A stretch of DNA of 64,000 nt, taken from NCBI RefSeq assembly GCF_038957035.1, contig NZ_CP152412.1, forward strand, positions 4,584,501-4,648,500. The letters are read 5' to 3'. Made by a program: the position numbers and the translations under genes. This document shows, one piece after another, positions 9,266 through 10,566 of the stretch (position 1 is the first letter of the stretch; the number at the start of each line of letters is the position of its first letter). Source of the stretch: Bradyrhizobium sp. B097. GTDB taxonomy: Bacteria > Pseudomonadota > Alphaproteobacteria > Rhizobiales > Xanthobacteraceae. A model generated the notes under the pieces. That model saw nothing but the letters and a program-made list of their open reading frames with translations. It searched no databases and was not told where the DNA came from.

Positions 9266-9429
9266 ACAAAAGCCGCCTTCAGTGTCGTGCAGCGCACTCT
9301 TGCCTCATAGACGCTGTCGTCCCGGCGAAAGCCGGGACCCATAACCACAGGGTTGCGTCGTTGGAGTGCGATGTGGCCCAGCGTTGCAACACAACTGGCA
9401 TTCGTGGCTATGGGTCCCTGTGTCTTGGA

Positions 9430-9570
9430 AGTCTGTCATGATGGGGTGGGCGGGAAGCCGTTGGGTCCTTGGCGCTTGACGCCGTGAGCCGGCTCGGTCT
9501 CCCGCCCGTTCCATCTATCAACCTGAACAGTTGCACGAGGCTGCGCCAACAGACCTCGCATCACAGGGAC
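9430..9570 (+). ncRNA. Candidate IS110 bridge RNA in the left end
   Basis: The left end folds into an outer stem 9448-9455/9500-9507 (GGGCGGGA with TCCCGCCC) and an inner stem 9456-9460/9490-9494 enclosing a loop. That loop holds TGGGTCC (9462-9468), identical to the left target flank 9411-9417, and GCTTGAC (9474-9480), the reverse complement of the right target 10530-10536. Further 3', AACAGTTGC (9526-9534) equals the element's right end 10518-10526, and CACAGGG (9562-9568) is the reverse complement of 9416-9422 at its left end. Order and polarity match the target-guide and donor-guide loops described for IS621. Ends of the RNA are estimates. Confidence 0.6.
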
Positions 9571-9577
9571 AGGCACC

Positions 9578-10519
9578 GTGACCATAGCTCTTCGTTACGT
9601 CGGAATCGACATCTCCAAAAAATACCTCGATATCTTTGATGAGGCTGACGGCGTGCCGAGGCGCATTGCCAACGCGACACAGGCCATCACACAGCAGGTG
9701 GCGCGTTGGCAATGCGATGCGCTGGTCGTCTTCGAGGCGACGGGTATCTATGACCTCGCGCTTCGCGAGGCGCTGCGTCAGGCCGGCATCCGCTTCGCAC
9801 GGATCAACCCGGCCCGTGCCCGCGACTTTGCGCGGGCGAGCGGCCTACTCGCCAAGACCGATCCGATCGATGCGCGGATGCTGGCAGCCTTTGCGCGGGC
9901 CATGCAGCCCGCCCCCGAGCAGGTCGCCGATCCTGCACGCAACGCCCTGGCGAGGCTTGCAAAACGGCGGGATCAGCTGGTCCTCATGCGCGCCCAGGAG
10001 AAGAACCGGCGCAGCGAGGCCGACGATCGCGCCATGGCCGAACGCATTGGCCGCCTCATCGAGGTCCTCGACCGCGAGATCGCCGAGATCGAGGCCGACA
10101 TCAGCGCATTGATTAAAGCCGAAGCGGAGATCGCGGACGATGCGAAGTTAATGCGTTCGCTGCCCGGCGTGGGTCCCGTGGCCTGCATGCAGCTCATCGC
10201 GCAGATGCCGGAACTCGGGCGGGTCGGACCGAAGCAACTCGCAGCGCTCGCTGGTCTTGCTCCCTTCAACGTCGACAGCGGCACCTTCCGCGGCAAGCGC
10301 AAGATTGCGGGCGGCCGAAAGCGCGTTCGTGACGCCCTTTATATGGCGGCCCTCAACGCAGTTCGCAGAGCTGATCCGTTCAAGGCCTTCTATGCACGAC
10401 TGCGACAAGCCGGAAAACCAGCCAAACTCGCCCTCATCGCCGTCGCCAGGAAGCTGCTGACGGTCCTCAATGCCATCATGCGAGACCGAAAGCCCTACCT
10501 GCAAACCAAACCAACATAA
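9578..10519 (+). CDS. IS110-family transposase/recombinase
   Basis: 313 residues from GTG 9578, with a purine-rich AGGGACAGG before it. The N-terminal RuvC-like DEDD domain is intact: D in YVGIDISKK (about residue 10), E in VFEATGIYD, and the D..D pair in [12 protein letters not shown]. The middle is a coiled coil. The C-terminal transposase_20 domain shows RSLPGVGPV and [20 protein letters not shown], containing the serine used for strand cleavage, then the helical end. Full length for the family (300-340), no frameshift. It would use the left-end RNA to choose target and donor DNA. Confidence 0.95.
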
Positions 10520-10566
10520 CAGTTGCCGGGTCAAGCCCGGGACGACAGCGAGTATGTGGCGCCGGC

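Follow-up and report, generated by a model that had tools for sequence, protein, structure and literature searches.

A Bradyrhizobium IS110-group insertion sequence with a very probable IS621-type bridge RNA addressed to TGGGTC-CC-GG repeats

The element, its ends and its recombinase

The window analyzed here, a stretch of 64 kb of DNA from a Bradyrhizobium-type genome, contains a complete insertion sequence (9419-10525) that belongs to the IS110 group and is of the IS621 type. As judged from translations, its neighbours are an acyl-CoA-synthetase-like gene on one side and a MarR-like gene on the other. Comparison of junctions across copies indicated that the element is bounded by two CC dinucleotides, hereafter called cores (9417-9418 and 10526-10527). 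An earlier reading, made from the sequence only, had placed the element at 9411..10536. The element is real, but its true ends lie between the CC cores, and the limit at 10536 takes in part of the surrounding repeat. The features of the locus are as follows:

9302..9416, + strand: left half of the target repeat, with the left target word TGGGTC at 9411-9416 (inverted repeats I1 and I9; word present at 77/82 sites)
9334-9348: inverted partner GGGACCCATAACCAC, within the left half of the target repeat
9417..9418, + strand: left copy of the CC core (both junctions compared across copies)
9419..9577, + strand: left end, 159 nt, carrying the bridge RNA gene (alignment A1, consensus fold, pair counts)
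9419-9422, + strand: right donor TGTG, within the left end
9434..9442, + strand: putative extended -10-like stretch TGTCATGAT (junction comparison)
9578..10519, + strand: IS110 recombinase, 313 aa, GTG start (Pfam, phmmer)
10519..10525, + strand: left donor ACAGTTG, the right end of the element (junctions across copies)
10526..10527, + strand: right copy of the CC core (junction comparison)
10528..10560, + strand: right half of the target repeat (right target GGGTC...), whose last part is the inverted partner of 9302-9325 (I1)

The recombinase belongs to the IS110 family: both Pfam domains, DEDD_Tnp_IS110 (PF01548) and Transposase_20 (PF02371), were found above cut-off. In phmmer searches IS621 (8wt6) matched residues 4-307 (E 1.4e-37), and homology to ISCro4 (9t56) was also detected (E 5.4e-35). 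The catalytic places are occupied (D11, E53, D95, D98 and S234, by eye on the alignment to IS621). A left end of 159 nt, together with a right end that extends 6 nt past the stop codon, assigns the element to the IS110 group rather than to IS1111, and no subterminal inverted repeat between the element ends is found among the 25 longest of the 43 inverted repeats detected. The own genome carries four copies, all at TGGGTC-CC-GG, which differ at 0 to 2 of 1115 bases. Searches at Rfam gathering thresholds gave no match in the element and one tRNA elsewhere in the window, and no near matches to the element were found on plasmids.

Relatives were collected at two levels. The first comprises 82 distinct Bradyrhizobium insertion sites of the element and its relatives (76-100% DNA identity for full-length relatives). 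A right flank was found by script for 69 of these sites; that of L141 was added by hand and stands outside the counts of 69. Element fragments (L082 and L102) and copies whose 30-nt left flank repeats that of another copy were left out before counting. The copy search was exhaustive in the own genome and 13 others, while up to 3 candidates were scored in each remaining genome. The second level is an order-wide set of 14 additional genomes, in which the relatives have a protein identity of 40-57%; all matching genomes of the 397 searched were used, with up to 5 candidates scored per genome. In one genome of this set, G379, the matched recombinase stretch carries one internal TGA in all five scored copies (L122, L130, L137 and two more).

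Structure of the left end and its four guides

The left end was examined as a candidate bridge RNA gene. The loops and guides referred to below are these:

9448..9507, + strand: target-binding loop, basal stem 9448-9455 with 9500-9507 (folds; two pairs changed on both sides in helix 1)
9462..9469, + strand: left target guide (LTG), TGGGTC plus CT, that is, left target plus core (covariation over 16 groups; rule-free scan)
9470..9484, + strand: apical hairpin of the target-binding loop, a non-guide stretch that includes the word 9474-9480 earlier proposed as right target guide (two pairs changed on both sides in helix 2)
9486..9492, + strand: right target guide (RTG), GAGCCGG, complementary to the CC core plus GGCTC (covariation with the right target; GATCCGG sublineage)
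9522..9573, + strand: donor-binding loop, stem 9522-9525 with 9570-9573, apical hairpin 9536-9558 (consensus fold, pair counts)
9526..9534, + strand: left donor guide (LDG), AACAGTTGC, identical to the element's right end with the first core base added (covariation)
9562..9567, + strand: right donor guide (RDG), CACAGG, complementary to the CC core plus TGTG (covariation)

The folding energy of the left end is -73.8 kcal/mol (z -2.85), and 2/200 shuffles reach a value as low. The consensus fold and the pair counts reveal two stem-loops with internal loops, as in IS621-type RNAs. When a 24-pair structure with both loops open was scored over 15 left ends (alignment A1), 97.5% of 360 cells were paired. 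Cells changed on both sides amounted to 17, compared with 5.8 in shuffles (0/500 reach this value), and pairs with both-sides changes to 5, compared with 2.9 (10/500); further pair types showed no excess (11 versus 13.1 in shuffles). Sliding the structure by 1-3 columns lowered pairing to 30-51%, a comparison that favours the tested structure over its slid versions as it was derived from the same sequences. The hairpin at the tip of the target-binding loop shows a compensatory change from C-G to U-A in 6/15 left ends.

The basal stem of the target-binding loop lies in a G/C run, and its register in the consensus is one base off from that of the own-sequence fold. The sequence-only reading had closed this loop with 9448-9460/9490-9507. 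The two-loop structure holds, but the 3′ strand of that stem absorbs bases 9490-9492, which belong to the RTG. No 5′ stem-loop ahead of the target-binding loop appears in the consensus fold. Unconstrained RNAalifold pairs part of the LTG with the RTG, so the loop may be closed in the free RNA; as these pairs vary nowhere except where they are broken, they constitute evidence neither way.

The RDG and the 3′ stem of the donor-binding loop (9565-9573) overlap the stretch where ribosomes probably bind to translate the recombinase. The donor-binding loop may have a double role in its 3′ part (AGGGACAGG), and RNA folding and translation may compete.

Four guide-like words had been pointed out in the left end by the sequence-only reading, and all of them are present where it placed them. 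Their joint pattern is beyond chance: when the left-end body (9439-9577) was searched for its longest exact match to each of the four flank words, the summed length, 29, was reached by 0/10,000 dinucleotide shuffles. Taken singly, the left donor match of 9 nt exceeds chance (10/10,000) but the other three do not, as shuffles reach the left target match of 7 nt in 534/10,000 cases, the right target match as then placed, also of 7 nt, in 650/10,000, and the right donor match of 6 nt in 2395/10,000. The comparison that the same reading had proposed, covariation of guides with flanks and element ends across copies, supports three of the words (LTG, LDG and RDG), each of which covaries with its site or element end across groups, and it supports a right target guide if GAGCCGG, and not GCTTGAC, is taken as such.

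For this comparison, the guides of each group were located by eye, at the positions homologous to those of the window. LTGs matched their cognate left targets at 5.54 of 6 nt and non-cognate ones at 2.68 over 16 groups, a difference reached in 0/100,000 permutations; in reading these numbers, it should be kept in mind that the register was set by best target match in G539 and G621, a choice that favours the hypothesis, that the two Bradyrhizobium groups, Br_G and Br_T, are two of the 16 yet have one common LTG, and that the permutation test treats groups as exchangeable although they share ancestry. Within eight CC-core groups the values were 5.80 and 3.73 (p 0.00009). For the RTG at positions +1 to +4, cognate matching was 3.22 of 4 and swapped matching 1.40 over 16 groups (0/100,000 permutations); positions +3 and +4 alone gave 1.41 versus 0.75 of 2 in nine CC-core groups (p 0.002). 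On the donor side, agreement of the LDG with the element right end was 6.93 versus 6.32 of 7 (p 0.00003), and that of the RDG with the left end 3.67 versus 3.09 of 4 (p 0.00005), both over 15 groups. Hence target and donor guides covary with their partners as in the IS621 type, with poor fits in G327 and G599 (RTG) and in G379 and G436 (RDG), and with one RDG mismatch in G407. Covariation over the 16 groups also supports the order LTG-RTG-LDG-RDG that had been read from the window.

A rule-free scan was also made, in which each left end was searched for the words of its own sites (up to three per group) with no assumed place. The scan ended at index 170, short of the RDG of G621. In nine CC-core groups with the RTG type of the window (Br_G and Br_T counted apart, one tie, G407), the best left target match lies at one conserved place, index 43-45, even though the word itself differs: TGGGTCC in Bradyrhizobium, TGGATTCC in G493, TGGGCCCC in G461, GTGCACCC in G383 and TGGTCCCC in G630. 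The RTG place was matched 7/7 in G489 (AGACCGG / CCGGTCT), G461, G407 and G644 (the latter two GAGCCGG / CCGGCTC), in one of three G383 sites (TTTCCGG), in L182 of the T sublineage described below (GATCCGG), and in the CT-core groups G379 (ACCTCAG / CTGAGGT) and G621 (CCCTGAG). Matches of 6/7 were obtained for the window copy, G617, G539 and G436 (the last one tied). The right target reached just 5/7, with ties, in L106, G493 and two of three main-lineage sites (tied over six places), and the RTG place was not singled out in two of three G383 sites, G630, G327 and G599.

Among the Bradyrhizobium sites, an exact TGGGTC stands left of the core in 77/82, and GG right of the core in 67/69 of those with a right flank; left target position -7 is matched in 1/82. 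The second core base of the LTG pairs as a G-U wobble. In IS621 the core forms part of all four guide pairings, as described in the accessible text of PMC11208160. A lone copy in G183, L097, is found at TTCGAGGT-CC-GCTTCC and fits both guides poorly; a tentative interpretation is that pairing slipped by one base.

The right target guide deserves separate consideration. GAGCCGG occupies the place of the RTG of IS621, across the hairpin from the LTG, and is complementary to CC-GGCTC. The alternative put forward from the sequence is GCTTGAC (9474-9480), programmed to the GTCAAGC of the window site. It is an exact 7-nt complement of the right flank of the window copy, albeit of a length that 650 of 10,000 shuffles attain, and it sits in a hairpin tip whose stem shows compensatory changes. 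The tip word is nearly constant (variants were found in G166, G101, L097 and L199) and its complement GTCAAG occurs in just 3/69 right flanks, one of them in L072, whose tip is GCTAGAC, so GCTTGAC is discarded as right target guide. Different right flanks are found next to the same tip, and the four near-identical copies of the own genome all keep GCTTGAC beside the right flanks GGGTCAAG, GGCCTGCG, GGCCTTCG and GGCTTTCG. Identical loop bases next to differing flanks are precisely what the sequence-only reading had named as evidence against its proposal, and we consider a guide role of GCTTGAC extremely improbable.

With GAGCCGG as the RTG, a natural one-base variant becomes informative. A sublineage with ten sites, six of them with a right flank, carries T instead of G at 9488 (GATCCGG in place of GAGCCGG). 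Five of the six lie at CCGGA (L182, L106, L007 in G198, L089 in G177 and L141 in G016); the sixth, L097, lies at CCGCT. The background at position +3 was counted in 12 genomes, G183 (L097) being left out: A follows an uninterrupted TGGGTCCCGG in 12/78 cases in G198, 14/80 in G177 and 12/163 in G016. CCGGA at 4/4 GATCCGG sites of two background-counted genomes has a probability of 0.0006 under that background. In G016, six other copies, with GAGCCGG, lie at CCGGC.

The main lineage does not show such an effect. C is found at +3 in 43/59 sites, compared with 40.2 +/- 3.3 expected, without excess over the genomic background, and in G002 five of seven main-lineage copies are at CCGGA. On this comparison the idea that RTG position +3 generally determines the site in the main Bradyrhizobium lineage was rejected, and the right guide may have little weight there past CCGG. 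As far as these sequences tell, CCGG is read firmly by the right guide, and +3 weakly if at all.

The lack of excess over background beyond CCGG in the main lineage, together with a donor-binding loop that is better conserved than the target-binding loop, would fit a left-end RNA that acts mainly on donor ends or regulates the recombinase, with the RTG or both target guides mattering little. We find this proposal very unlikely: covariation of the LTG, covariation of the RTG between groups and the T sublineage all speak against a minor role of the target guides.

The target word and the palindromic repeats

TGGGTCCCGG is present in 174 uninterrupted exact copies in the own genome, compared with 19 for a reversed control. 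The target thus has the traits of a REP or BIME, as it is dispersed, palindromic and present in many copies, with inverted arms at the window site. The repeat ends GTCGTCCCGG / CCGGGACGAC, so that it probably belongs to the CGTC-tagged REP class. Palindromic repeats with CGTC tags have been described for Bradyrhizobium among others (PMC3733652), Br-REP1 and 2 have also been described (PMC5082802), and REPs have been reported as IS110 targets (PMC1525189), in each case according to the accessible text.

A CCGGGA-like palindromic partner is found within 40 nt in 48/69 sites. The remaining 21/69 have no such partner nearby; ten of them begin GGCTCTGCG and look like a second repeat class. By eye, and within the 40 nt of right flank inspected, L106, L089 and L097 lie outside recognizable repeats. 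The sequence-only reading had the element aimed at a dispersed palindromic repeat. The aim at such repeats is supported, but what is recognized is apparently not the palindrome itself: the target seems to be the ten-base word TGGGTC-CC-GG, common to several repeat classes, and palindromes are hit because they begin with that word.

One might suppose instead that the site is picked by the recombinase, or by the repeat through its hairpin shape, and that the likeness of the left end is incidental or a captured piece of repeat. The 48 sites with a palindromic partner agree with this possibility, as does the reported targeting of REPs, without RNA, by IS elements of several families (PMC1525189, accessible text). 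However, the guides track their targets across 16 groups, a one-base change in the RTG is accompanied by a changed right base, and the word is also entered at the 21 sites devoid of a nearby CCGGGA-like partner, even if ten of these share the GGCTCTGCG beginning. A site choice by structure alone is, in our opinion, hardly credible.

Altogether, guide/site covariation, compensatory changes and the presence of TGGGTC at nearly all sites support the original proposal of an IS110 element with an IS621-type bridge RNA in its left end. The guide/site covariation, the conserved structure and the site consensus are direct observations. We therefore hold with high confidence that this is a bridge-RNA IS110 element whose guides address TGGGTC-CC-GG repeats and its own ends; expression of the RNA, its binding and strand exchange would take place by analogy with IS621.

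Core dinucleotide, proposed mechanism and known systems

The left core is CC at all 82 Bradyrhizobium sites and in seven related groups with the same RTG type. CC is also found in G599 and at one of two G327 sites (the other is TC), while five more distant groups have CT, with TT on the left at one G621 site. The element thus departs from the CT core of the IS621 type, which has been described for IS621 and its kin, not for all IS110 elements; in IS621 kin the T of the core is almost invariant and is read by a main-chain amide (PMC11208158, accessible text). A poorly resolved tree of 15 recombinases bears on whether CC-core elements form one clade: as drawn it needs two core changes, but its well-supported branches force only one, so that the tree is compatible with a single origin as well as with more than one.

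The proposed mechanism can be outlined as follows. In the excised circle, the ends would abut as ACAGTTG-CC-TGTG, and transcription there would give the two-loop RNA. The first loop would pair with the genome, the LTG binding the bottom strand of TGGGTC-CC and the RTG the top strand of CC-GGCTC. Pairing with the circle junction would fall to the second loop, the LDG with ACAGTTG-C and the RDG with CC-TGTG. The DEDD/serine recombinase would then exchange strands at the common CC core. Landing mainly in palindromic repeats would ensue because TGGGTC-CC-GG starts several dispersed repeat classes.

A promoter-like arrangement arises in the circle only, with TTG (10523-10525)-CC-T (9419) as a candidate -35 and CATGAT, preceded one base before by TG, 17 nt away. 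This spacing was the best of five tried in 12/17 junctions, a count made with no shuffle control. Left-end positions T16, G17 and T24 are invariant in alignment A1, and A20 nearly so. The arrangement recalls the promoters that IS621 and ISEc21 have been described to form at their junctions. If the stretch is used, the transcript would start near 9449, leaving no room for a 5′ stem-loop of the IS621 type.

Because the DNA of the LTG equals the left target, the model predicts self-insertion in the LTG. Two relatives are relevant in this regard. In G327, a copy (L120) is inserted in the LTG stretch of the guide gene of another copy, whose split halves flank it; in the host copy, an apparently shortened recombinase frame follows the split guide gene. 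In G383 (L160), the first part of the left end is duplicated upstream and stops in the LTG, as if a self-insertion had been followed by loss of one unit; among five genomes of its genus, the L160 junction is found in G383 only. A search of 265 Bradyrhizobium genomes for the predicted left junction of a self-insertion, with up to one mismatch, gave 1 hit compared with 6 for a reversed control, so that such junctions are at chance level in Bradyrhizobium. The lone hit is in G134, a genome without a left-end match.

Most Bradyrhizobium copies spell the second core base of the guide as U. A speculation is that the CC-core branch of IS110 has a recombinase that accepts C for T, and that the U wobble at core base 2 of the guide serves to distinguish self from non-self: the guide-gene DNA of the element would then lack a CC core and be a poorer target. 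The relatives with a guide-gene insertion (L120) or a left-end duplication (L160) do contain CC in their guide DNA. Against the speculation, the guide retains CC in six further CC-core groups and in the Bradyrhizobium genome G101, and no self-insertion was seen among their copies. We consider it rather unlikely.

No description of this element or of a CC core was found in the titles, abstract beginnings and text passages of openly accessible papers that the literature search covered. The element probably works like recently described RNA-guided recombinases and is nothing new in kind. Its value is that it lets the pairing rules of bridge RNAs be tested independently, on natural material from Rhizobiales: all four guides covary, one changed RTG base is accompanied by a changed site, and the core differs (CC versus CT). 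A recombinase active on a CC core would make further cores available for bridge recombination and would tell what the T-reading main-chain contact of IS621 tolerates. In addition, one ten-base guide can reach several repeat classes.

The closest likeness is to IS621 (Durrant 2024, PMC11208160; Hiraizumi 2024, PMC11208158): both belong to the IS110 group, have an RNA in the left end with two internal loops, and share the order and polarity of four guides. The core is included in the guides, the LDG ends in C followed by A, insertion occurs at REP sites, the recombinases are homologous, and the circle junction is promoter-like. The differences are the core (CT in IS621 kin, CC here), the target word, and the U that in this element stands opposite G in the LTG pairing.

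The seekRNA of ISEc21, likewise a member of the IS110 group (Siddiquee 2024, PMC11187229), also comes from an upstream non-coding region, has the guide that matches the bottom strand first, and involves a circle with a junction promoter. Its target, however, is a linear site inside IS3-family genes, while here it is a word that starts dispersed palindromic repeats. In the same work, ISMch6 provides a case of natural redirection by base changes in a guide, as seen here. ISPa11, ISPpu9, ISPpu10 and ISRm19 of Sinorhizobium (Tobes and Pareja 2006, PMC1525189) are IS110 elements with copies in REPs, one of them in Rhizobiales as is this element; they were reported from their positions, at a time when guide RNAs were not yet known, and are likened to it by description and not by sequence. 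Lastly, CGTC-tagged REPs (PMC3733652) resemble the target repeat in its ends, with the difference that several repeat classes carry the target word here.
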